This document shows, piece after piece, positions 4,358-53,082 of a stretch of DNA of 64,000 nucleotides. Source of the stretch: Aphrocallistes beatrix (lineage: Eukaryota; Porifera; Hexactinellida; Sceptrulophora; Aphrocallistidae). The stretch is taken from NCBI GenBank assembly GCA_963281255.1, contig OY725503.1, positions 2,604,001 through 2,668,000 of the forward strand. Direction: 5' to 3'. Made by a program: the position numbers and the translations under genes. Under the pieces are notes generated by a model, which saw only the letters and a program-made list of their open reading frames with translations, was not told the DNA's origin and did not search any database. Positions within the stretch are counted from its first letter, which is position 1, and each line of letters begins with the position of its first letter.

Positions 4358-4527
4358 CACAGCCTACGTAACTATAGCCTATTCACGGTATTTAACCATG
4401 GATTACTTCAAGTCTTATGTGCAAAATGCAAACTATATAGCATATCTATATTTTGCTGAAATTTAATGGAATGTAATGAAAATTGTCAAGGTTCTCTCTT
4501 ACTACAAACTAACATGTATACAAATAG

Positions 4528-5041
4528 ACGAGTGTTATCTTAGCGGCCGATTCAGCGGCGGATTCGCATGTCACGTTCAAATATGAATAACTCAGCAAGC
4601 ATATGTCGTAGATGAAATCTAATTGCACCATTGTGTAGAGGAGCATTGGCCCATTCATATTTGATATATGAAATTTTAATATCCCGCGTGATGAGTAAGC
4701 AGTGACACTTTTAGTCCATGTCACGTATCTGGTGGAACAAGTCAGTAAATATGAATGGTAGCAATTAGCCCTTTTAACCACATGAAGATGAGCTTTGGTG
4801 CACCCCTGAAATCCATTTTCAAGACTAAATTCGGAAAACTGGCTAAATGGCAGAGGGCCAAAGTTTGTATTTACTTGTTTGGTAATAGGCATAACTTCAT
4901 ACTGGTATCCAACTAGGATGTGATCTAGACAAACTTAGCTATTTATCCATAGTTATCTACGCTCTTGATGAATGTCACTGAATTTGTTTACACAATTGAT
5001 GCATAATTCCTGGTCAATTCATAATTAATTAAATATTCCTC
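4528..5041 (+). repeat. MULE left terminal inverted repeat (514 bp)
   Basis: Reverse complement of 9900-10413 with only a few substitutions. A reading frame present in both copies (4509-4892 minus and 10049-10333 plus) is a by-product of the repeat. The inner boundary at 5041 is where similarity stops. Confidence 0.85.
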
Positions 5042-5136
5042 CTTTTTTATATTTGATCCCAGCCTAATTAGTATATATAAATTTTTTTTTTTCGAACTAA
5101 CATTATTCAAACTTGACGTTTTCATACATTTTTTTT

Positions 5137-5228
5137 CGCATTTCGCATTTCGCATTTCGCATTTCGCATTTCGCATTTCGCATTTCGCATTTCGCATTTC
5201 GCATTTCGCATTTCGCATTTCGCATTTC
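5137..5228. repeat. Heptanucleotide microsatellite (CGCATTT)13
   Basis: About 13 perfect tandem copies of CGCATTT, followed to about 5258 by degenerate copies. It lies inside the MULE between its left terminal repeat and the ORF1 start at 5324, about 95 bp upstream, so it is in the promoter/5' UTR position. Confidence 0.9.
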
Positions 5229-5323
5229 CCATTTCGTAATTTGCATTCCGCATTTCCATTATCGTTCGCTTTTTTCTTCTCGATTTTTCCTCTGACTACT
5301 TCCATAATTCTAAGTCAGAAAAG

Positions 5324-6487
5324 ATGAATAATACGGAGAGTATTACTTTTTGTCAGGCCTTACTCCAATTGGGATACGATTCTTTTGAATCTTTAAATTC
5401 AGCATTAATTAAAGAAAACAGGAGAGCAAGCAATTCTCTTTGGGGAAAATTGTGCCTTTCGATGTACGGAGTCAACAGAGAGAGGAAACGCACGTTACTC
5501 TATACTAATTGGATGAAGAATCGCGGTCAGATAAAGGACGTAGTAGCTGCTGAGATGTCATCTAAGGGTGAGTTGAACAAGTCCGACGATAAGGTGGTAT
5601 ATCAAGGGAAGTCATATCTTGATAGGAGTGGTAAGATATCTAAGAGTGGAAATAATGATAGTTGTCTTGAGTCAACCCCCATGTTAGATATTCCACAATC
5701 TAATCAAGAACTGGAACTTGATTGCTTAAACGTTGTAATAACTAATACTAAAAGTGATCGAAATCTCAACGATGCGCTAAATCTCCCTAGTATTTCTAAT
5801 GGAGAATTTAATTTTACTTTGGGTGAATGGGAAAATATAGCGATGTTACAGGGCAACCGAGCTATCTTTTCGAGGGATTGGACCAATGTCTTTAATGCTA
5901 AGATCGAAGATAAATTTGTTTGTGTTATTTGCTTTAAATACAAAAAAATAGGTAAAATTAATAGTAGGAAAAGCAATACTTGTTTTTTCACTGCTCATGC
6001 AGAATGCAAGTTTTCTAATTGTCTTCGTTTTAAATTTACAATACAGAATGAACCTTTTACCTCTCGGCCTGTTAACATTACTGTCAATTATGAAGTAATG
6101 GGTACCTTATCCCCTGAGCATTCAAATGTGGACATTGCCTATTCAAGAAAATTGTCGAATAGTTTAAGATTGCAGGTAGCCTCTAATTTAACTGATAAAT
6201 CAGTTGGTAACTACTTTTATGAACAGTTTCCCCATCCCAATTGTGAGAGCTCTGCGTTATCTTTTGGTAACTTTAACAATGTAAGAAGTGCCTGCGTCTT
6301 GAGGAAGGCTAAGTTTGATTTGTCTTGTCTTCAAAGGTTTTCTAACGATAATTGGAGCGAACTTTCTGGTTTACAGGAATATTATAGAAATATTACAGTT
6401 AATAACATACTTCGAGGGTACATCCAGTCTTTAGGCCATGATCCATTCATAGTTCAATGTATTCTCAAGATCAAATTCAAGTTTTGA
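5324..6487 (+). CDS. MULE ORF1: zinc-binding N-terminal part of the transposase
   Basis: An uninterrupted 387-codon frame starting at ATG 5324, the first ATG after the heptamer repeat. Residues 200-233 hold a likely zinc-binding cluster (C200, C203, C220, H225, C228, C233) reminiscent of the WRKY/FLYWCH-type DNA-binding fingers that precede MULE catalytic domains. The acidic, Ser-rich middle (80-160) is low complexity. The C-terminus reads GHDPFIV and then ends in a frame that does not match what follows, while ORF2 begins in the -1 frame within the last 31 nt. This suggests that ORF1 and ORF2 were, or still are, one protein: either a single-base indel near 6450-6460 or a frameshift during translation. 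Binding to the terminal inverted repeats is inferred from the family. Confidence 0.7.
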   Translation: MNNTESITFCQALLQLGYDSFESLNSALIKENRRASNSLWGKLCLSMYGVNRERKRTLLYTNWMKNRGQIKDVVAAEMSSKGELNKSDDKVVYQGKSYLDRSGKISKSGNNDSCLESTPMLDIPQSNQELELDCLNVVITNTKSDRNLNDALNLPSISNGEFNFTLGEWENIAMLQGNRAIFSRDWTNVFNAKIEDKFVCVICFKYKKIGKINSRKSNTCFFTAHAECKFSNCLRFKFTIQNEPFTSRPVNITVNYEVMGTLSPEHSNVDIAYSRKLSNSLRLQVASNLTDKSVGNYFYEQFPHPNCESSALSFGNFNNVRSACVLRKAKFDLSCLQRFSNDNWSELSGLQEYYRNITVNNILRGYIQSLGHDPFIVQCILKIKFKF

Positions 6488-8553
6488 ATTATTTTAAGGG
6501 TAAGAAAGTAATTGTGCATTTAGATTCTACCGGGTCTATTATTAGAAAAATAAACTCGAGCCAAAAGCGTGTTTTTTATTATGCATTGACTATTCGTCAC
6601 CCTGAGGTCACAACCAGCCCTTTGCCATTAGCTGAAATGATTAGTTCAGCTCATTCTTCTGCAGAAATATCTTATTTCTTACATAAATGGTCTCTTGACT
6701 CAAAAAAGGTCTTAAGTAGAGAAATTAATATTGGCCATGTAGAGATTGATTATAGCTGGGCCCTTATTCATAGTGTTTGTAACGCTTTTATTAAATCTGA
6801 TATTTTCACATACTTGGAGAAATGTTGGAAGTTATTATTTAGTCAGGAGGAGGTTTGTATGCAATTCGGTGTTATTCTTCACTTGTGTTCCGCTCACCTA
6901 ATTAATGGAATAGCTTTTAATGTGAATAAAAAGTTTAAGTTATCTAAACCAGTTCGAAAATTGTTTCTTCATACTATAGGATATATGATAAATTGTACGC
7001 AAATGATAAATTTAGATAGTGTTTTTATGGATTTGTGTTATGTCTTTTTAAACCGAAATTTCAATAAGAATGTTGAGAAGCATATACAAAATTTAGAATC
7101 ATTTATTAGTTATAGTAAAAGTTGCGATGATGAATATGTTGAACCCGAGGATAGTAATAATTTGACATCTTTTGTGGAAAATGAGGGTAAAACCTATCGC
7201 GATAAATCCCCATTTGGTAAGCATTTTAACACAATTTATGAGAAGTGTAAATCCGAAATTTTACTTTTGAATGATGAGAAACCTTGTTTGGAAGCCAACC
7301 CTTGTTATAACCCCGAAATTATTGAATATCTACTTACCCATTATATGGCTATAATTCCACTATGGTCAGGCATTATTTTGGGGTTTGGTTCCAGTGAATC
7401 CGATGTTTACATGAGTCATTATAGTAATGCAATTGTAGAAAATTGGATGCGTATAGTAAAGATAGACATATTAAAGTCTCGTACTGGTTTAAGACCAGGG
7501 GATCTGATAAGGATTATGCATCCTAACATAATTAAAAGATTAGCAGCTTTTTGCTTTGCTTTTCATCCTAGAGCTAAGAAGGTATTTAAAAGTTATAAGC
7601 GTAAAAGAGATCCTTCTGAGGAGGAGAATTGTCAGGAGGAATGGCAGAGAAGGAGTAAGAAGAAATGTAATAGCTATTTAGTATCTAAATCTATCAGTTT
7701 TTCTCAAGTTAGGCCATTAGTAAATAATACAAATAAAAGAAAATTAGATGCAGGAAATGACATAAATGAAACTGAAAAAAAGAAATGTAAAATTAGTGTA
7801 GATAAAAATGAAAAAACAAAGCTAAAATTTGTACCTAGGTTGCGTCAGAGATTATCTGATTTGAAAAAACGTGACTTTTCTGTCTCACGAATCAGTGATA
7901 ATATCGACAGTGACGCTGTCGATATTATCACTGATTCAGATCTTGTAGAACAAGATATTTTACGTTTAAAGTTGCCTCCCTTCCGCCCGCCAAATAAAGA
8001 CTGGCAAAAAAGTATATGTAGTAAATGGAATATTTTGGTTTCTAATTATATTAATTATGAAATCGATCCTCAGTTGGATCAACAAGATCTTAGAGAATGT
8101 AAACCTTGTGTTGTTGAAAACATAGTGGGTGATGGAAATTGTTACTTTCGAGCTCTTTCGTTTATCCTTACCGGTAGTCAGGAAAATCATTTTAATTTAC
8201 GCACAATTATAGTTAATAACATGTTAGGTAGATTAAAAAATAGTTGTGACGCCTTTTTAAGGACTAAATATGTTTACCAGCAAAGTAACTACAGAAGTGT
8301 AAAGGATTGGGTTAATAAGACAGGGATGGATAAGAATGGGAAGTGGGCAACGGATTTGGAAGTATTTGCGACAGCGTTACTTTTTGAAACCGATATATGG
8401 GTATATTTAGGACCTAGAGGTACACGCTGGATTGGATTTTCTGGTAAAGGGAAAAAATTAAATGAATTTCTCGATTGTCCCTCTATATTTAGAATATATC
8501 TACAAAATACTGGCTGTCATTATGAACCTGTTTTGTCTGTTAATAATATGTAA
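6457..8553 (+). CDS. MULE ORF2: DDE transposase core fused to an OTU cysteine-protease domain
   Basis: An intact 698-codon frame. Residues 1-335 look like a MULE catalytic core: D23 in HLDSTG, D98 in VEIDYSW, a C-x2-H pair (C144, H147) and E328 in SNAIVENWMR, the usual position of the third catalytic residue. Residues about 385-500 are Lys/Arg-rich (KSYKRKRD), a probable nuclear-localisation and linker region. Residues about 550-698 form an OTU-type deubiquitinase-like domain, with GDGNC (D559, C562 as nucleophile) near its start and H688 in CHYEPV as the general base. The linker DNA contains a perfect 22-bp hairpin (7889-7937). All key residues are present, so the protein may be active if the frame break with ORF1 is tolerated. 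The role of OTU in transposition is unknown. Confidence 0.75.
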   Translation: MYSQDQIQVLNYFKGKKVIVHLDSTGSIIRKINSSQKRVFYYALTIRHPEVTTSPLPLAEMISSAHSSAEISYFLHKWSLDSKKVLSREINIGHVEIDYSWALIHSVCNAFIKSDIFTYLEKCWKLLFSQEEVCMQFGVILHLCSAHLINGIAFNVNKKFKLSKPVRKLFLHTIGYMINCTQMINLDSVFMDLCYVFLNRNFNKNVEKHIQNLESFISYSKSCDDEYVEPEDSNNLTSFVENEGKTYRDKSPFGKHFNTIYEKCKSEILLLNDEKPCLEANPCYNPEIIEYLLTHYMAIIPLWSGIILGFGSSESDVYMSHYSNAIVENWMRIVKIDILKSRTGLRPGDLIRIMHPNIIKRLAAFCFAFHPRAKKVFKSYKRKRDPSEEENCQEEWQRRSKKKCNSYLVSKSISFSQVRPLVNNTNKRKLDAGNDINETEKKKCKISVDKNEKTKLKFVPRLRQRLSDLKKRDFSVSRISDNIDSDAVDIITDSDLVEQDILRLKLPPFRPPNKDWQKSICSKWNILVSNYINYEIDPQLDQQDLRECKPCVVENIVGDGNCYFRALSFILTGSQENHFNLRTIIVNNMLGRLKNSCDAFLRTKYVYQQSNYRSVKDWVNKTGMDKNGKWATDLEVFATALLFETDIWVYLGPRGTRWIGFSGKGKKLNEFLDCPSIFRIYLQNTGCHYEPVLSVNNM
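7889..7937. other. Perfect 22-bp hairpin inside ORF2
   Basis: Arms 7889-7910 and 7916-7937 are exact reverse complements, separated by 5 nt (TGACG). The hairpin encodes part of the acidic linker between the DDE and OTU regions of ORF2. Confidence 0.95.
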
Positions 8554-9596
8554 TCCAATTCTTCAATTAAGCCAATTAAATATATTCAACTTCTATATAT
8601 GACTTTATTTTATTTTGTATCCGTGCTGTTGTTGTCATTGTTATTGTTTTTATTTTGTATTCATGTTGTTTTTGTTTTTTCTTTTTACCTCTTCATAGCA
8701 CTTAGTGATATTATTTATCAAATGCAATCAACTCATTCTCATTTGTTGTCATAACCTGGAAGTGTAGAGTGCGTCAAACACACATTTCTAAAGAATGTAC
8801 CACACAAGAAGTTTCTATTTTTCACAAATCAACATAGTCTATTTATATATCAAATATTTGACTTGCCCGAAATTTGGAACCAACAAACTTCTGGTGATTC
8901 AAAAGAAGCATTCCACGCATACGTAATTACACTTCAGCAGATTTCTAAAAAGGGAAATTAGACGATTTACTCGCTCAAAATGGAAGTGCATTACAAAAAC
9001 AACACTGGCAGGGTGCTATACTTGTTAATTTTAATTAGTCAATAGCTTAGTCCAGAACCTCAATTGAATTGACTTTATTAATCAGAGTTATTTTAAGCAT
9101 ATTAATAAGATGGTAAATTTACAATTACAATTATTATTCATTATTTATCAAAAAGACAAAGCCGTGTGGTAAATGCATGTTAAATTCATTATAGTGGAAC
9201 GAAATTACCTGATAGGTTTATTAGCAAGTATTTGTTTACTATTAATGCTCGTTATACAAAATTAAACTTCAAAAGTTTATAATATGTCCTAAAGCGAAAA
9301 TAAATATATTAAAATCCGGAGCGATTCCAATTTCTATTTTGACATAATGAGGCCTTTTTACGAAATTTCAATTTTTAGGTTGACTTGCATGAATTTTATG
9401 TCATCAGTGTATGATAAATAAGGCTGTCCAAACCCTATCTCCTCGGGCAGCCACATTCCATTATTGGGGTCGCGGGGCGAATATATATGTAGATTCAGAA
9501 GATAATATAAAATAATATGGCAATTATTTCTCAAATGATTAATAAAAATAACTTATTTTTTAAATATATCAGTCAGTGAACTGAAGACAAGACTAC
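8554..9596. other. MULE internal non-coding region
   Basis: AT-rich, with a T-rich tract at 8600-8690 just after the ORF2 stop. Near 9423-9482 there is a GC-richer patch resembling a MITE fragment. No gene seen. Confidence 0.5.
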
Positions 9597-9794
9597 CTAA
9601 TTATCTTCAACTCTAGGCACTTTGAGATCAATGGATTTTCTCGAGAATGTTTGCAATACCTGTCTCAGAAATCCATTCACCTGCACATTTTGTATTCCCC
9701 TCTCGTGAGCAGTTTGGTAGTGGCTACGGATATTATTACCTTGTATGCTGAGAATACCAGCACAAATCAAGCATTGGGGGTTTTCCATGATCAT
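9597..9794 (-). CDS. Small zinc-finger ORF inside the MULE, opposite strand
   Basis: About 65 codons from ATG 9794 to a stop at 9597, ending about 100 bp from the right terminal repeat. It reads CLICAGILS then SHYQTAHERG, a C-x2-C...H-x4-H arrangement like a BED or C2H2 finger, followed by a short basic tail. It is convergent with ORF2 and could be transcribed from the right terminal repeat, as accessory genes of some Mutator elements are. It could also be the last exon of a longer gene, or chance. No family was recognised. Confidence 0.4.
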   Translation of the reverse strand: MIMENPQCLICAGILSIQGNNIRSHYQTAHERGIQNVQVNGFLRQVLQTFSRKSIDLKVPRVEDN

Positions 9795-9899
9795 ATCTGA
9801 CAACCCTTTTAGAGCATTTCGCAGAATTTGAACAGGAAATCCTTAAATAATCATCTTAACAATTTTATCCGTGAATAATAAATTTTGGTCTGTTCTTAC

Positions 9900-10413
9900 G
9901 AGGAATATTTAATTAATTATGAATTGACCAGGAATTATGCATCAATTGTGTAAACAAATTCAGTGACATTCATCAAGAGCGTAGATAACTATGGATAAAT
10001 AGCTAAGTTTGTCTAGATCACATCCTAGTTGGATACCAGTATGAAGTTATGCCTATTACCAAACTAGTAAATACAAACTTTGGCCCTCTGCCATTTAGCC
10101 AGTTTTCCGAATTTAGTCTTGAAAATGGATTTCAGGGGTGCACCAAAGCTCATCTTCATGTGGTTAAAAGGGCTAATTGCTACCATTCATATTTACTGAC
10201 TTGTTCCACCAGATACGTGACATGGACTAAAAGTGTCACTGCTTACTCATCACGCAGGATATTAAAATTTCATATATCAAATATGAATGCACCAATGCTC
10301 CTCTACACAATGGTGCAATTAGATTTCATCTAGGACATATGCTTGCTGAGTTATTCATATTTGAACGTGACATGCGAATCCGCCGCTGAATCGGCCGCTA
10401 AGATAACACTCGT
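9900..10413 (-). repeat. MULE right terminal inverted repeat (514 bp)
   Basis: Partner of 4528-5041. Its outer end, CACTCGT, abuts the 9-bp duplication TACAAATAG at 10414-10422. Confidence 0.85.
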
Positions 10414-10435
10414 TACAAATAGTCCTCCATATTGA

Positions 10436-20341: not shown

Positions 20342-21598
20342 ATGACAGAAGACCCTCCTGATCAGCCGTTTCGGCTGATCAGATCTTGTAGAGGAGGAGA
20401 AAAACTAGTAGAAGGAGGTTATCTATATGACAGACAGAGGAGAGTAGGAGATGTGAAGCACTGGCAATGCGTGAAGAGAGGAATTTGCAAAGCAAGGGTT
20501 CTTACGAAGGGTATGGAGATAGTCAGACGAACCAATGAGCATCTCCATGGACCAGATGAACAGGAGGTAAGTTGTCGTGAGGCTAAGATAGGTATTAAAA
20601 GGAAAGCAGAGGAAACCCGGGATAGTTCACACAGCATAGTAGGGGAAAGTCTCCTCACGGTATCTGAGGGTACTGCTGCTAAGCTGCCTAAGCTGGACAA
20701 TTTAAAGCGTACGATACAGCGTCAGAGGGAACGAGTGCTAGCTGTTCAAATACAACCAACTACCCTTGAGGAGCTCAACCTTCCTCCTGAGTACCAGCAG
20801 ACAGCGAAGGAAGAGCAATTCTTGCTCTACGACTCTGGTCCGGAGCCGCAGAGAATTCTCATCTTTGGTACACAGCGTAACCTGGATATGTTGCAAGCAT
20901 CCCAGTGCTGGCTTGCTGATGGTACCTTTAAGACAGCTCCTAACCTCTTTGCCCAAGTGTATGTGTTGCATGCACTCCGAGGAGGACCGGAGCCCCTAAA
21001 GGATGGCCATCTTTTACCTAGCCTGTTCATCCTCCTACCTAATAAAACCCAAGCTACCTACACACGGATGTGGCGACAGATCCAGTTACTCTGTCCTAAT
21101 GCTCAGCCATCTCGGATGCTTATGGACTTTGAGAAGGCTGCCATTAACAGTTTCCAGCAGGTGTGGCCTGGTACACAGGTGAAGTGCTGCTTCTTTCACC
21201 TCACACAGAATATCTGGCGCGAAGTACAAGCTGAAGGACTGCAAGCTGCTTACAACCAAGATGAGGAACTAGCCCTACGCTTACGCCTGTTGCCAGCACT
21301 CGCCTTTGCTTCACCCTTTGATGTACTCGAGGTGTTTGGTGATGTAGTACAGGAACTTCCAATGCCCCAAGCCACTGGTCTCGTTCTATACTTTGAGAAA
21401 ACCTATGTCGGGCGCAAACTCCCTGGTGGTACCTACCAGGATCCCTTGTTCCCAATTGAGATGTGGAACTATCACTACCACACGGCGTTTGGGTTACCTC
21501 GTACAACCAATGCAGTTTAAGCATGGCACCGCTCTTTCAATGCTACTGTTGGCTGTCACCATCCAAATATTTGGAAGTTTATCACTGCCTTGAAGCGT
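20342..21598 (+). pseudogene. FLYWCH zinc finger plus MULE transposase, stopped at the catalytic Glu
   Basis: An open frame runs from ATG 20342 through 392 codons. Residues about 12-72 form a FLYWCH-like zinc finger (CVKRGICKARV, ending in HLH). A coiled, charged segment follows (about 80-135). The MULE catalytic domain has D193 in LADGTF, D262 in LMDFEKA and a CCFFH motif at about 281-285. The frame stops at TAA 21518-21520 in the sequence NAV-stop-AWHRSFN, where the family has Glu. The reading continues in frame afterwards (WHRSFNATVGCHHPNIWKF) until the inverted duplication starts near 21599. One G-to-T change could therefore have created the stop. This domain pair is known from animal Phantom-type MULEs. 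Confidence 0.75.
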
Positions 21599-22199
21599 GG
21601 AGTGCATGCAACACATACACTTGGGCAAAGAGGTTAGGAGCTGTCTTAAAGGTACCATCAGCAAGCCAGCACTGGGATGCTTGCAACATATCCAGGTTAT
21701 GCTGTGTACCAAAGATGAGAATTCTCTGCGGCTTCGGACCAGAGTCGTAGAGCAAGAATTGCTCTTCCTTCGCTGTCTGCTGGTACTCAGGAGGAAGGTT
21801 GAGCTCCTCAAGAGTAGTTGGTTGTATTTGAACAGCTAGCACTCGTTCCCTCTGACGCTGTATCGTACGCTTTAAACTGTCCAGCTTAGGCAGCTTAGCA
21901 GCCGTACCCTCAGATACCGTGAGGAGACTTTCCCCTACTATGCTGTGTGAACTATCCCGGGTTTCCTCTGCTTTCCTTTTAATGCCTATCTTAGTCTCGC
22001 GACAACCAACCTCCTGTTCTACTGGTCCGTGGAGATGCTCATTGTTCGCCTTGATTATCTCCTTACCCTTTGTTTGTTCCCTTGTTTTGCAACTCCTCTC
22101 CGATCCATTGCCAGTGTGATCATCTCCTCTCTCCTCTCCCCTCTCCAATCCTCTCTCCTCCAGTATCGACGAAGGCCAGCTGGCATAGATGTGGTGCAT
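21599..22199 (-). pseudogene. Inverted partial copy of the FLYWCH-MULE transposase
   Basis: The minus strand reads the same protein as 20460-20976: EQEVGCRETKIGIKRKAEE, PTTLEELNLPPEYQQTAKEE and CWLADGTFKTAPNLFAQVY. It ends at the junction HALHA. It lacks the finger's first half, the second Asp and the rest of the domain. The inversion point lies in shared GGAGTGCATGCAAC at 21599-21612, suggesting a fold-back repair or template-switch event. Confidence 0.75.
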
Positions 22200-24348
22200 A
22201 TTTATTTCTATATTTTATTCTTATATTACGTATTTAATCATATTAATATTAGTGTTACTTAAACTTCAATATATTAAACATACTTAGTTATTAGTAAATG
22301 TATCTTCGAATTGTAACCAGGGCAATTATCCCGTCCCATTTTGTAACTCATCTATTGAGGTAATTTTAAGTGTCTCGTTTTTCCATGAAATTCCTCAATT
22401 ATGTCCCCTTTATGCACCTGATAATACTTTTCAAATGGGTCCCCCGATTTCCCACAAAATTCGACACTGGCCCCGTGTAACAACTCAGATTATACCCTCG
22501 TCCTCGAATATACCCGCATACTTGCCAACTGTCCCGTTTTTGGCTGGACGTCCCGCTTTTTTCACCCTTCTCTTGACCTGATTTTCTCGAGTGTCCCGCT
22601 TTTACATGAAATTTGCCCATTATGTCCCGATTTTTTTGACTCTATTTATAATACTTTTCTATTGCGTCCCGCTTTTATCATGAATCAGGTTGGCATGTAT
22701 GTACCCGGGTATATTCTGTCCTAGCCTAGATTATAACCCCGGATATGAAGCGGGCTAGCCCAGAATATTCTCCCTGTCTTCGTAATATCAAATGAATGTG
22801 GATCTTTTGGCATGGCCGTAGGAAGTGGTGCGGCTTGTAAGGCCATGGCCTTACCACTTTTTTTTATAAACTGTCTTAGTTCTATGGACGAAGATGTGGA
22901 TGACTCACGATGAGCCTTACCACATTTGATTAACACAGCAACGATGGCCTTACCACTTTTTCTGAGCTTCTGACGGCCCTGTTTGGGGTATCTATGTTAA
23001 CATTTTGTCGTAGGAGTCTTATAAATTGGAAAATTGCCTCAGAGAAGTAGAGTGATGGCATCTACTCCTAATATTATCATGACATTATAGATAGACAGCA
23101 GGGACGGACCCAGGGGTGGCATGATATCCAGGGTCTCCACCCTCCACTCAAAGAGAAAGTGCAATCGTCAAGTCTTAGCTAAGAATAAGCTTAATACCAC
23201 AGTTCGTCCTCTTTAATAAACCTTGATTTGCCCCTGGACATGACTCAACAAAATATTTCTGTTTCTCCAATTATATTTCACTATAATAACAAGTACAAGT
23301 GTAAAAATTAGCAATTCCGTATACGTAGCAGTACACCTTTGGTTATTAACAAACAGCATCAGTCTGCTACTTTAAAGATTTCTATTTGGAGAAGTGAAAT
23401 TGTTCGGCTAATCGAAGGCTTACTGTACTATGGTGATCCCATACTATGTGTATCCCAAATACCAACTCGTCCAAAGACACACAAAGAACCCCAAAGACTC
23501 CACTGGTCTCAAGGATTCCTCAAAACCCCCAAAACCCTCCTTATCAGGTTTTGAACACAGGACGAGTTGACCAAAAAAGGACGAGTTGACTGGTCCCTTA
23601 TCAGGGTTGGGGGCATAATCAGGACAGTTTATACCGGGTATATTCTGTCCTAGCCCAGAATGCACCCCATGGGGGTATATTCTGAGCTAGCCCACTTCAT
23701 ACCCAGGTATAATCTGGCCTAGCCCATAATGTGCCCAGGTATATTCTGGGCTGCTACACCTGTATTCGGAAGTGCACCGTATTATAATTAGCAGCACATA
23801 ATCCACATTCTCTCTTCGCATAAATCCTTGCTACGTAAACTCCTTTGGTGACATTATCGAAACGTAAGGTTCCTTGTCATATTAATTTTGACGTCCGAAA
23901 TCCCACCAGTAAACCTAAACTCAGATAAAAGTACCCAACTTGTTGGGATGAAGCCACTGACATCGAAATGATGATAACAAAATTTCATGAACTAACAGTG
24001 TAGAATGGAGGTGAAGTGTATTATATAAGAACATTGTTTATACTAAAATTATACGCCTGCACATAGAATTGATAAAAATGAATCTAGTGTAGCATAATAC
24101 AAGTATGTTACTTTAAAGTAGGGAGAAACCTAGTAAATTTCAGCAGATTTCCAAAATTACAAATCATGGTCATAAAGCGATCTTACAAGTATTTGAGAGA
24201 GATGAGAATTCACATTCCATTGTTCAGATACTATTAATTATACGTACTTCAAAACATCTAAATATGTCAAAACTGATGTTTTGATATCTTTTAATTATCG
24301 ACTTAGCACAAAAACGTTATATTTTCATAGTATATTAGATGTTAGAAA
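22200..24348. repeat. MULE interior filler with short MITEs
   Basis: No gene. About 22513-22698 is a hAT-like MITE with ends CATACTTGCCAAC and GTTGGCATGTA and near-duplicate flanks TATACCCG/TGTACCCG. About 22700-22780 and 23630-23760 contain inverted and direct copies of GGTATATTCTG and TAGCCCAGAAT. The rest is unassigned. Confidence 0.45.
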
Positions 24349-43869: not shown

Positions 43870-44761
43870 CAGGTATCCCTCGCCGTTTGCGGGGGTTACG
43901 TTCCTGAGAATTGTCGCAAATGGCAAAATCGCGAACGGCAAAACGTTAGTTCAATGAGAATAGTGGGGTTATGTTCCTAGATTATAAAAACGACTCTAGA
44001 TACTGCTTGCTAAATACGTTATTGATTCAATAGTTGAGCTGTAATACTCATACAAACACTGGTACAAGTAAAACGGTAGTAATAAATGAAGTGATAAATG
44101 AAAGAAATAGATCCCCTAGTAGCAAACCTAAGTATCATACCTAAATAGTAAAGTCTAGCCTTTAGTACTAAACCTAGATTGTAGATACGAATATGGTTAT
44201 GGACTTATGGTAGCCCATGAAACTACTGAAGAGAGTAACGAAAACCGCAAATAGTCGAGGGAACGAGCCGCGAATAGCAAAACAAGAATCAAAAAACCCT
44301 CCACAGACGGGATGGAAGTGTGCTACCATTTTACATTTTGATGACGTCATCGTCACCTTAGGATCATATGTTGACTTCTATCTATTTTCTAACTCGAGTT
44401 ATCGAACTTTGAATATTTAATGAGATGATGACGAGATAAAATTTTGATCCGTCATTGTCACCTTGGATATCGGCCCGATCAATTGGAGACTTTGATACTA
44501 TCTAGTGGACTCCATTGCCTACCTTCGATATCAATATCAAGTTTATATTATTTATACTTTGGCTAATATAGGAGAAATGGTAAAAGTGACAAAATGCTGT
44601 GTCATCATGCTGATTCAGCATAAATCAAAAATCGTATACCGAGGTGCACATTTCCATATCACTTTGCACCTCCTGTAAAAATTTCAAGACGATATCTTTT
44701 AAATTTTCCGCGAATAGTCGAAACCGCGAATGGCAAACTCGCGAACGGCGAGGGTCGCCTG
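43870..44761. mobile_element. pogo/Tigger-type MITE, 892 bp, in Merlin copy B
   Basis: Ends are CAGGTATCCCTCGCCGTTTG and, inverted, CAGGCGACCCTCGCCGTTCG. TA lies at 43868-43869 and 44762-44763. Removing it and one TA restores an open Merlin frame (GTTI-YSDKW). No transposase inside. Confidence 0.75.
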
Positions 44762-45361
44762 TATATAGTTGTCCCAGGTAAAACGAATGTTTTGATAATA
44801 GGTAGCAGCGTAGCAGTTGAATGATCCGGTACAGTAACTATCACCATTTTATCTGTATCCCTCTCGACCATACCAAATACCCACTGTCCAGTTAATAGTC
44901 TTCTTTTATTGTACTTGCGTTTTCCAAACTTGGATTCATCAATCTCAACTATGGTGCCTACTCCGCCGATAGGCTCTGGATTAACAAGTAACTCTTCCAC
45001 ACAAATGTCCCTGAGAAAGTTCTTCCAATCTACAACAGTATTCGGACTCCATCCCAAGTGTTTCTCTATGAAATCGTGTGACTGTATCTCTTCACTCCAG
45101 TAGTATAGAAACTTCAGCAACGATGGAAATGTGAGATGTAATGGCGTGAAGAAGGATCTTTGTCTGAGCGAACATCTACCTCTGCAAGGTGTACATCTCC
45201 ATTAATAGCCCTCTTGATAATGAGTAGACTTTGTTTGATACATCTCTTCACCACATCTACACCTCATTCTATGTGTCAATAACCCATGGCTTCTCATCAA
45301 GCAATAATATTCTCAATAGTGTCATGTGCGAGTAATATTATGTCATCAATTATAAAGTTTC

Positions 45362-47894: not shown

Positions 47895-47898
47895 GTCC

Positions 47899-50800
47899 TG
47901 TTGCGTGGTATTCTGAGGCACCGTGGTATTTTGAGGCACTAGTCAAATTAACCATGGATATTCATCTAGCGTGGTATTCTGAGGCAACACCAATCCTGTG
48001 ATCATGATGCGTCATTTACATAGTTCCAATTTAGACAATGACTTTCAATGTGAGTAGTGATACTTGTATGTTTTCCCTGCTCTAAATAGTGTATTGTGCT
48101 TCATGACCTGCAGGGGCCTGATTATTTACCAAACTACTCAAATTAAGTTTTTCTTAAACTACTAAGTCAAAATTGAGTTTAAACTACGTAACTTTGAAAC
48201 TAATTTGGTATTCACAAAGCAAAACTAACTTAGTTTTTTCATTTTTTACTAAAAAGTCAAGTGAACTTGGCTTAAATCGATATTTTTAAAATTTTACATT
48301 GATTTGATAATTGAAAGTAAATGAAATACGTACATATGTAACATCGAAAACCTAGATGATGAGTTGTGGTTACATTGATATTGTGTTCTGAATTCATCAC
48401 GATATGATTTGCTTATTTACGTAATATATAACACGATTAAGTTTGCATTTATTTGGTTGCATTTCTGGGCTTGACAATCTAAGTATGTAACAATTACAAT
48501 TATGAATCCTAAAGATATAATACATGTATAAAAGATAGTTATTTCGCGAATGACAAATTTTATAAATCAATATTAATATTTACATTTTGGTCCTTCAATC
48601 AACTTGAATATTGTACTTACAAGTAGTATGACAAAATTAAGTTTAATCTATCATGCGATCAGGATCGCTTATAATGAACAAACCCAATTTTGACCTCATA
48701 ATATTTGTATTGCACTATAAGGTCATTTAATTCTTCATGTTAATTGACTTTTTAATGACTGCTTTATTACGAACCATTTTTGCCGTTCGGATTCAATAAA
48801 AGCGAACTTGACTATTAGTCATTTTTCAAAATTGAAAATTAGCAAATATCCAGAATTTGCTGAATGGAGCCAAAGGAATATGAAGATATTCATAATTTCC
48901 TTTCTAACGGTGTATACCCTCCTGCGGTATCCTCTACATCCAAGACAAAATGGAATTTCCGAAGAAAGATATCACTGTATTCAGTTGAGGAATCAGATAA
49001 ACTATTCAAGGTAATTTTGTACAGTAAAATACTTTCATATGTAAGAAGTTTTATAATGTATAGTGTTGTACATACTTGTTTCAAACTTGCTTTTTAAAGA
49101 GGATCATTCTTAATGGGAAAGAGACGCAAGTTGAAGTGCCAACAGCTGGGGAAGTTCAGGGAATATTAAGGAAGCTGCATGACCAGGTTGGCCATCCTGG
49201 AATCAACACCACCTATTCTGCAATACTACAGCGATTCACTTGGAAAGGAATGTATCCCTGCGTCGAGGACTATGTAAGTATAAAATTATCAAACTTATTC
49301 AACTGCATCAATTTTCTCACACCTTAATCGGATTAGTGTATTTACTACAATGCAACTTTGAATTAGTGTAAATCAAGAGGGTTTTCATTAGCATTTCTTC
49401 AACTTATAATCTCAAACAAGTTTTACTTACTTAAAGTTTTCGCTTAAATTTTTTTAATTTATCATTTCATCATTTCAAAAAAGTCAAATCATGTGAGATA
49501 TGCCAATTGACAGCCTCATTGCCACCACAGCCACAAAGGAAACTACAGCCTATTCCACCCCCAGATCGACCATGGCTGCATATTGGGATGGATTTATTAT
49601 GCGATCTCCCAGTAACTCAAGACGGTTTTCGACACATCCTTGTCACTGTGTGTTATTTGAGTAAATTTGTAGTAGCTCGAGCACTAAAATCTAAAACATC
49701 TGAAGAGATTCTTGAGAATCTAAAAGATATATATCTTGATGTCGGATTACCGAATGTTATTCAGCACGACCAAGGAAAGGAGTTTACTAGCAAGGTGTGT
49801 TTAGAAACTCAATTTTATACGTTATGTTTATCATCAATATCGACTAATTAACTTATTATATATGTAGATATTTCAGGAATTTCACCAAAAGCTAGGAATC
49901 GACGATCGTAAGACCCGTGCCTATCACCCTATGGCTAATGGCTTAGTTGAAGCACATAACAAGATTCTCAAAACGTAATGTTTATATTTCTTGAACTACT
50001 TCTTAATTAAGGGAGAACAGTCTGTTAATTGGGCAGAATTTCAATTTTTTAAAATTATTCATTTTGTGTAAATAAGTTATTAAATTTAAAGGACCTTTTA
50101 AGAGTCTGTCATCACAATATTATAATTTTATTATACAAAGTTACTCATGGTAAATTATAATTCGATTAATTAGGAGGTTGAACAAGCTGAACCTCCAAAC
50201 TAAAAAGATTTGGTCAGAGCAACTAAAGTCTGCAGTTCTTTCTATGAACAGTACCCAAAAGAAATCCCACGGATATACTCCTTACATGGTAATGTTTGGA
50301 AGAGAGTCAAGGTATGAGGATCTTCTCTCAGCGATCAATGATACCATATCCACTCCACAAGAAGATTTGGAGTTAGAGGAAAACATATTCGCTGAATTCC
50401 AACATACAGAAGATGAACTTCGAGAACAAGGACTTGAAGAGATATCTTCCATTGACCATGAGCGAGCTAAAATATACAAATGTGCAGCAAATTCGATTCG
50501 ATCAGATCAATTAAGGCAGAAAAGGCAATTTGATAAGAAAGTTAATGATACCAGGTGTGTTTTATTTAATATTGGAAATTTGCGGATCTACATGGCAAGA
50601 GGTGGATTCAGGTTTTATATGCACTATTTTATCTAATTCATCTTATTTGGCTTAAATTAGCCTAGCATAGGCATATTTTTAAAAATTATAAACTTCTCCA
50701 ATGAAATATAGCTTAAATTTCAAGTGGTGAGTCCACCTTTAGGTAACGAGGATATGACTGATATATTTTCTATTCCATTTGTAGACCTCAAATTAAAACA

Positions 50801-53078
50801 GGTGATATGATATTATACACAAACATGCCTAAACTAAAGAAAATGCCTAATACTAAAAGACAGCAAAAATACATGGGGCCACAAACAGCAAACGGGTTAC
50901 TGACAGCCATGTAGTCATATCACAAGACCAGCTAGGGAAGCAGAGAGAAAAACGCATTCCTATTCACATTGCTCGTCCTTACTTTGAACGGGATGCTAAT
51001 TTGCCCAGGAAAGCAAATATTATAATTACAGCAGATTCTCATATTGATACTTTTGGCAAGAAACGGATTAAAGTCAGTGGTAAACTATACATTCGATGAT
51101 ATTCTTAAATACATTTATCCATTCCGTGGTATTATGTTAGTTGCTAAGCATTTAGCAAAATTTGAGAAATATTTTTTGTTTAGAGTGACCCCATTATTTT
51201 TGGGTTTCCTAGTGACTCAATAATTGCACATCTCAACACTCTCAAGGTTTGTATATTATTCAATCTATTTATGGTTTACAACATCCAATTTTAAATAATA
51301 AATATAAATACTAATTATTAACCAGTTAAGATTGACATTTACTTAACTTTTTTTCTTCTTTAAAATAATTGATCTGTTGTCCTAGATGCAGGTTTATCAT
51401 TCAAATTTTATTTTCAGGCTATCCTAACACAGAATATTCGGGATGGAACATTTATTACTCCATTGCATGAGCAACTGCACAATATGCTTAATAGATATCA
51501 CGAGTATGTTCCGAACACACTTCTTTTTACTTTTCTAAAAGATTCAACTGAAGATGATATGGTATGTATTCTGCCGTATTGCCAAGGACGATTTAACAAA
51601 ACTTGACATTATTTGTAACATTAAATAGACCACTCTAAAACAAAACTCAACGGTGCTTCTCTTCCAAAATTAAATATTGATATTACAAGTATTACTATAC
51701 AAATCTAATTTATAGAAAAAGGCGATTCGAGACAAATTATTAGGCTGGACAACAGATTTATATCCTATGTTCGGCGACGTGTTAGCTGGAAAATATACAG
51801 AAAAGGTCTTGTATGGAGTGGTAAGTTTGTAAGAGTGTCCTTAACATTAAAAATACTCAAGACAAGTAAATTTCAACGAAACCTATCTGATTTTATGTGG
51901 ACTGAACCCAGGGCTTCATCCAGCTTTCGTAGGATATGCGCCTAAAATATCCCTCTAGTTATTTTGATACACCTAGCGCTAGCCTATACACTAAATATTA
52001 CGATATCGGAGTTCAGGCAATTTTCGCGCGCCTAGACCAATATAAGATTAAATTGTAGGCGCACCGCATACGCCTGGATGAAACCATGAGTCTGACTCTT
52101 GTGTAGTGACAGGCACTTCTCATTCTGAACTTTCTCATTAGGCAATTCAATACTTAAACACAATGTTATGGGAAACATACCCTGATGATTGGCGAAACTG
52201 GATTCCCAATATGGCAGTTAAAAGTCCAACAATGACAGTTGTTGGCGAAGCATGGCAACGTGATAAGTGTGCGATGTTGGGTATTACATACCAGACTAAT
52301 TGCAGGCAACCAGATCACCTTATTGATGAGCCACTCTATAGATACCAACCCTGGGAGACGGAAGCTATTGTAGGTGATGGAAACTGTCTATTCAGGTGTC
52401 TATCAAAAATAATTACAGGAGAACAAGACAGCCACCAACAACTACGAAGAATCATTTCTAACTTCATTGCGAGCGAAGGCACTACCAAACTAGGGTGGTA
52501 TTTTAGAAAATTCCGTATTACACCTAGCGACTACTTCCTTAATGAAAAAATGCCACATCTTGATGGTGTTTGGGGTGGAGATATCGAGATCATGGCAGCT
52601 TCAGCAATTCTCCAAGTTGATATTTATATTGCTAACGACAACTACTTAAATACACTACAAGAAAGTAAATTTAGCCATCAGGTACGCTGGAGCCTACTCA
52701 AAGGTAGCAAGGACACAAAGTTAGCAATATATATCAAGAACTTTGCTAATCATTACGAACCAGTGATATCTATGATCAATTGTCCAACTCCCACTTTCGG
52801 AATAATTGAAGAACCCCTGAATTCTCAAACAATATTATAGTACTCACATATTTTTTTCTATTTGTATTGTATGTCTTGAATAATGAGACGAATAAACATA
52901 TCATTTAAGCATTCCAGGTCATGAAGCACAATACACTATTTAGAGCAGGGAAAACATATAAGTATCACTACTCAAATAGAAAGTCATTGTCTAAATTGGA
53001 ACTATGTAAATGACGCATCATGATCACAGGATTGGTGTTGCCTCAGAATACAACGGTGCCTCAGAATACCACGCAACA
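47899..53078 (+). mobile_element. Ginger1 DNA transposon, 5,180 bp
   Basis: Termini are TGTTGCGTGGTATTCTGAGG at the left and the same, inverted, at the right. The inverted similarity continues for about 160-210 bp. A 4-bp duplication GTCC flanks it (47895-47898 and 53079-53082). TGT...ACA ends, a 4-bp duplication and a gypsy-like integrase are the published hallmarks of Ginger1. The left end has three copies of GTGGTATTNTGAGGCA and the right end two. Confidence 0.85.
48864..52840 (+). CDS. Ginger1 transposase: H2C2 integrase, GPY/F-like region and OTU domain (ten inferred exons)
   Basis: Exons inferred from GT-AG signals and frame: 48864-49010, 49100-49277, 49484-49794, 49868-49974, 50174-50554, 50785-51072, 51184-51246, 51418-51561, 51716-51820, 52142-52840. 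Order of domains: an H2C2 zinc-binding region (LHDQVGHPGINTT, then SCEICQL) and the DDE integrase core, with Asp in HIGMDLL, Asp in IQHDQGKEF and Glu in NGLVEAHNK. A GPY/F-like segment follows (KYMGP...VTDSHVVISQDQLG). The C-terminal OTU domain has GDGNC at 52376-52387 and HYEPV near its end. The integrase resembles that of Ty3/gypsy retrotransposons. One lesion is evident: a single-base frameshift near 50885-50900 within the GPY/F-like region. Otherwise the protein seems intact. Exon 2's donor (GTATAA) is the least certain boundary. Confidence 0.7.
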
Positions 53079-53082
53079 GTCC

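Follow-up and report, generated by a model that had tools for sequence, protein, structure and literature searches.

We analysed a window of 64,000 nucleotides from the genome of the hexactinellid sponge Aphrocallistes beatrix (contig OY725503.1, positions 2,604,001 to 2,668,000; "the window" means this whole stretch). Positions 4528-10413 of the window hold a transposon with long terminal inverted repeats (TIRs), flanked by a target-site duplication (TSD) of 9 bp, whose coding region ends in an OTU domain. We consider it probable that this is a divergent Mutator-like cut-and-paste transposon. Its single protein would begin with a putative zinc-binding region, continue with a DDE-type core and end in an OTU cysteine protease. 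The element and its open reading frames (ORFs) are laid out as follows:

4519-4527, no strand: left TSD, TACAAATAG, sequence read at both flanks
4528-5041, plus strand: left TIR, 514 nt; the same sequence stands at the ends of other copies, in several of which a 315-bp module is added
5134-5260, plus strand: TTTCGCA minisatellite, with up to 13 exact units in a row in the window copy
5324-6487, plus strand: ORF1, 387 aa, N-terminal part of the transposase with a Cys-containing, possibly zinc-binding DNA-binding domain
6457-8553, plus strand: ORF2, 698 aa, remainder of the protein begun in ORF1, out of frame with ORF1 owing to a frameshift in the window copy
6523-7440, plus strand: DDE-type core, with D23 (6523-6525), D98 (6748-6750), C144-x2-H147 (6886-6897) and E328 (7438-7440)
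7970-8550, plus strand: OTU module, i.e., a WQ-containing preface of about 50 residues and the OTU domain (Cys at 8140-8142, His at 8518-8520; approximate left boundary)
9900-10413, minus strand: right TIR, 514 nt, paired with 4528-5041
10414-10422, no strand: right TSD, TACAAATAG, a perfect 9-bp match to the left one

A recently active family with intact coding frames in other copies

The two TIR arms differ by five mismatches over 514 nt, and the sequences at the flanks are identical, a match expected by chance with a probability of about 4e-6 (4 to the power -9). The inverted repeats and the perfect duplication announced by a first-pass annotation of this DNA are thus real. In several copies the TIR reads as positions 1-341 of the 514-nt query followed by positions 27-514, i.e., the 315-bp module is in tandem, in a foldback-like arrangement. 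The TIR exceeds 514 nt where this module is repeated, and is as long as expected of Mutator elements. The exact run of TTTCGCA, a minisatellite that the first-pass annotation had passed over, ranges from 2 to 30 units in the ten other loci that have a run of at least two.

We searched the sponge's own genome (G000, 100.5 Mb) for further copies. ORF2 gave at least 86 matches (the best 64 of 713 candidates were scored), and the 514-bp TIR, used as a DNA query, at least 56 (the best 40 of 103 candidates were scored). The flanks of 16 two-ended copies were checked for target duplications, including the window copy and two short, presumably non-autonomous ones. A perfect 9-bp duplication was found in nine of the 16 (6/11 and 3/5 in two batches). 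At one copy (C12:2726981) the duplication spans 10 bp and includes one mismatch, it is imperfect or decayed in four others, and the flanks of the remaining two (C2:1904002 and C8:1613774) have none. The two short relatives have the same TIRs at both ends; the one at G000:C4:2667023-2670009 has a perfect 9-bp TSD, the one at C7:4218276-4220845 does not. Along the element we compared 15 loci from the family of the window copy, some of which cover the same element. In their best match to the window element, 14 of them show 98.7-99.5% identity (L009 shows 97.1%), and we therefore regard the spread of the family as recent.

In the window copy ORF1 and ORF2 are in different frames and share 31 nt. 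At three other loci (L002, L003 and L004; the L003 protein has 1,074 aa counted from its Met) the same region forms a single open frame of 1,102 codons, hence the window copy is frameshifted. More generally, intact copies encode a single protein in open frames of about 1,040-1,270 codons. The element had been called a complete MULE (Mutator-like element): it is a real TIR transposon, but its coding frame is broken in two. The acidic residues and the C-x2-H motif were correctly placed in MULE order (ORF2 residues 23, 98, 144/147 and 328). These catalytic-type residues have been kept, being invariant in two protein alignments, A1 (11 rows) and A2 (10 rows). A MULE core would be expected to have an RNase H-like fold; a single-sequence structure model of this core had a mean pLDDT (predicted local distance difference test) of 35.5.

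The only Pfam match of ORF1 is PHD-like (zf-HC5HC2H) and lies below the cut-off (E 0.047; E 0.014 for the L003 piece). The N-terminus in A1 has a C-x4-C...H pattern that, by eye, we take to resemble a WRKY-GCM1/FLYWCH-type zinc finger, a trait of MULEs, and none of the five N-terminal pieces compared with Pfam matched that family. Within the coding linker lies a perfect 22-nt hairpin with a 5-nt loop (7889-7937), which recurs at further loci in the window's own family and is altered in L009, L013, L018 and L030.

The OTU domain and its relatives

The open frame that carries the core does continue into an OTU domain, as had been proposed: ORF2 residues 558-689 match Pfam PF02338 (E 7e-8, 33.5 bits for a cut-off of 23.3), with Cys 562 and His 688 in place. 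Pfam recognises the domain in ten of the 11 A1 proteins scanned, and the motifs DGNC and H[YF][EQ]P are present in all ten OTU-bearing rows of A1. Two residues after the catalytic His, OTU proteases usually have D or N, and another residue may serve; in A1 this residue is E or Q.

The fusion is not private to one damaged copy, which the first-pass annotation had named as the finding that would refute it. We searched 40 loci of the sponge genome for the core and the OTU; several of these cover the same element, and L030 is a core piece of 39 residues. Core sequence is present in every one of the 40, and a clear OTU match in 38. These 38 are also the loci with the DGNC motif, which shares one open frame with the His in 27 of them, the OTU being broken in the other 11. 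The two exceptions are L029, without an OTU match, and L064, with the first 20 OTU residues only. Since their close relatives keep the domain (L026 and L039, respectively), we read these two loci as having lost the OTU or as having been cut before it.

The 11 core rows that we compared represent nine lineages (two of which are each a pair of rows 98-99% identical), with mutual identities of 33-63%. Every lineage has an OTU-bearing member. In the diverged pairs among 14 pairs compared, the OTU is 38-69% identical, the core 44-63% and the linker 30-44%: the OTU is conserved about as well as the core, and better than the linker. For the OTU, the three diverged pairs with a computable dS gave ratios of non-synonymous to synonymous substitution rates (dN/dS) of 0.14, 0.20 and 0.24, values that are rough given a dS of 1.9-2.7; dS was beyond computing in the remaining diverged pairs. 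Near-identical pairs, with very few changes, gave 0.78, 0.27 and, in one case, no value. The trees of core and OTU agree on the main split and place L038 and L066 differently within one half. The data fit, without proving it, a single ancient core-OTU fusion.

A related OTU lies in the same window, on a transposon of another type:

47899-53078, plus strand: second transposon, Ginger1-like, with an integrase-core ORF (49435-49848) and an OTU ORF (52142-52837)

This element has a 141-nt inverted repeat and, read by eye, a 4-bp duplication GTCC (47895-47898 and 53079-53082). Its integrase frames are broken, its Gypsy-type integrase core matches rve just below the cut-off (E 2e-7, 31.5 bits for a cut-off of 32.6), and its OTU has a Pfam E of 1.4e-9. 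Ginger1 elements have a Gypsy-type integrase core, TIRs, a 4-bp TSD that is CCGG or CCGT, and a C-terminal OTU or Ulp1 domain (PMC2836005; here and below, published families are described from the accessible parts of the sources cited). We call the element Ginger1-like because its architecture matches but its duplication does not.

PF02338 has at least 149 matches in the sponge genome (the best 150 of 263 candidates were scored), many of which sit in frames of about 220-245 codons. Nine of these loci were taken for comparison: one of the present family (L097), two that look by eye like host OTU genes (L089 and L090), L096 and five short-frame OTUs. L096 (G000:C2:4502450-4503200) carries its OTU in an open frame of 1,970 codons, and another frame of 1,947 codons lies on C7; such long frames are perhaps yet another OTU-bearing element. 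We built a hidden Markov model (HMM) from the OTU and upstream segment of the Mutator-like family. The Ginger1-like OTU and the five short-frame OTUs scored 73.6-102.0 bits, L096 31.4, and the presumed host genes 20.4 and 7.0. Five of the six high-scoring OTU sequences extend into the upstream segment, and in these the match begins about 50 residues before DGNC, over the WQ-containing preface. In the OTU tree the Mutator-like family forms a single, weakly supported clade (71/52), and the host branches are very long. From these sequence comparisons, the module would share a transposon-borne origin with the Ginger1-like OTUs, and would not derive from either of the other two OTU genes that were sampled.

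Function of the protein and affinity of its core

In the transposition reaction that we propose, the N-terminus would bind the modular TIRs and the DDE core would cut and insert with a 9-bp stagger. The OTU, a predicted deubiquitinase, would act in cis, taking ubiquitin off the transposase or off host proteins located at the transposition complex, and this removal may prolong the life of the complex or of the transposase. A possible alternative, which we hold tentatively, is that the OTU acts in trans on host defence or DNA-repair proteins, e.g., by reversing ubiquitination at the break or during silencing, and does not stabilise the transposase. A role in DNA repair has been suggested for the Ulp1 and OTU domains of Ginger1 (PMC2836005), and one suggestion for the protease domains of Helitrons is that they overcome a limit on transposon inheritance (PMC9741609); yet protection from proteasomal degradation has been suggested for the latter too (PMC9741609), and a fusion of OTU with transposase suits action in cis at least equally. 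We give stabilisation in cis and action in trans on repair or silencing similar odds.

The Mutator-like placement is suggested by the order of the motifs, the D1-D2 spacing, the TSD and the long TIRs. The order D, D, C-x2-H, E is that of MULEs. The D1-D2 spacing of 75 lies in the range given for most MULE families of arthropods (60-76), and the TSDs of Mutator elements are of 8-11 bp, usually 9, the length of the perfect duplications in nine of the 16 two-ended copies. It is because of this spacing, the 9-bp TSD and the long TIRs that we read the family as Mutator-like. Several results weigh against this reading. None of the profile methods used showed the MULE identity assigned in the first-pass annotation. 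ORF2 residues 1-335 alone matched no Pfam family up to an E of 5. The Pfam MULE profile (PF10551) is absent from all 11 proteins of A1 and all ten of A2, and none of the 121 places listed for it in the sponge genome falls on a copy of this OTU-bearing family. Comparisons of the core with MULEs of the same genome by hhalign and HMM gave no link, the target sets being shallow, and neither did a search of the PDB with the core. The D2-E spacing is 221-233, above the 120-214 reported.

These negative searches and the long D2-E spacing would suit a core that forms a separate DDE superfamily with 9-bp TSDs, outside Mutator proper (Rehavkus, FB/NOF-type or undescribed). So would the Rehavkus-like traits of this element: the 9-bp TSD, the minisatellite and the PHD-like match below the cut-off. 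An FB/NOF-type affinity is a tentative suggestion, and Rehavkus is compared here by description only. We nevertheless think a separate superfamily unlikely, as the motif order and the D1-D2 spacing suit a MULE and Rehavkus itself is regarded, in the accessible sources, as a close outgroup of MULEs. Less likely still is a bolder version, in which the core represents a DDE lineage of its own, next to Mutator, with an obligate OTU fusion, and the OTU with its preface is a portable deubiquitinase cassette that moved between two unrelated transposase superfamilies in animals. That the OTU was captured from the host and rides along without a part in transposition is highly improbable: Mutator elements are prone to acquiring host gene fragments (PMC6446971) and the domain is missing from two of the 40 loci and broken in 11 of 38, but it stands in the same reading frame in all nine core lineages (33-63% identity), is about as conserved as the core, and is much closer to the transposon-type OTUs (73.6-102 bits) than to the presumed host genes (20.4 and 7.0 bits).

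Two other MULE sequences lie in the window. A frame at 20342-21517 (plus strand) matches the Pfam MULE profile at 20909-21211 and has, by eye, a FLYWCH-like start; a stretch at 21585-22214 (minus strand) is near-identical to it, so that the two copies face each other. By eye, we also take the ORF at 44662-45201 (minus strand) to resemble an IS1595/ISXO2-type (Merlin) transposase.

Comparison with known systems

For the divergent Mutator-like transposon that we favour, the conservation of the OTU points to a ubiquitin-type protease as a long-conserved part of the transposase rather than a stray capture, and a related module is also present on a second type of transposon of the same genome. Surveys based on the Pfam MULE model would miss the family, because that model does not detect it. 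Its intact, near-identical natural copies make testable the older idea that transposons gain from deubiquitination (PMC2836005, PMC9741609).

An animal Mutator element with an OTU has been published before, contrary to the first-pass annotation, which knew of no such family. Dupeyron et al. 2019 (PMC6446971, Table 1) list, in group 14, the cnidarian element MuDR-6_HM with an "Ovarian Tumour Gene" motif. Like the present element it is an animal Mutator-type element with one ORF; it is listed with TIR "None" and no TSD indicated, whereas ours has modular TIRs of 514 bp and 9-bp TSDs (the two are compared by description only). In the literature searched, which left Repbase, supplements and most subscription papers out of scope, we found no described family that combines modular TIRs of this length, a Pfam-silent core and a fixed OTU.

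Other families share some of these traits. The Phantom and Tm1 Mutator-foldback elements have 9-bp TSDs and foldback-like composite TIRs, but their core is found by the Pfam MULE model in a protein of 496 aa with a FLYWCH finger, and the word "OTU" is absent from the main text of the paper (PMC3169594). Rehavkus is listed with a 9-bp TSD, TIRs of 26-400 bp, a minisatellite and a PHD finger (PMC6446971); its minisatellite is described before the 3' TIR, whereas ours lies near the 5' TIR, and no OTU is listed for it, again by description only. Ginger1 resembles our element in having a DDE transposase that ends in an OTU (or Ulp1) domain (PMC2836005), and the OTU of the Ginger1-like element of the window is a close relative. 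It differs by its Gypsy-type integrase core, to which our core has no detected relation, and by a TSD of 4 bp instead of 9 bp. Ulp1 is also said to occur on Mutator elements of hydra, lancelet and plants (PMC2836005). Finally, Helitrons and Helentrons carry OTU domains too (PMC9741609, PMC6431247), which according to the 2022 paper had not been assayed for activity in Helitrons (PMC9741609); there the domain accompanies a rolling-circle Rep-helicase protein, whereas here it ends a DDE transposase.
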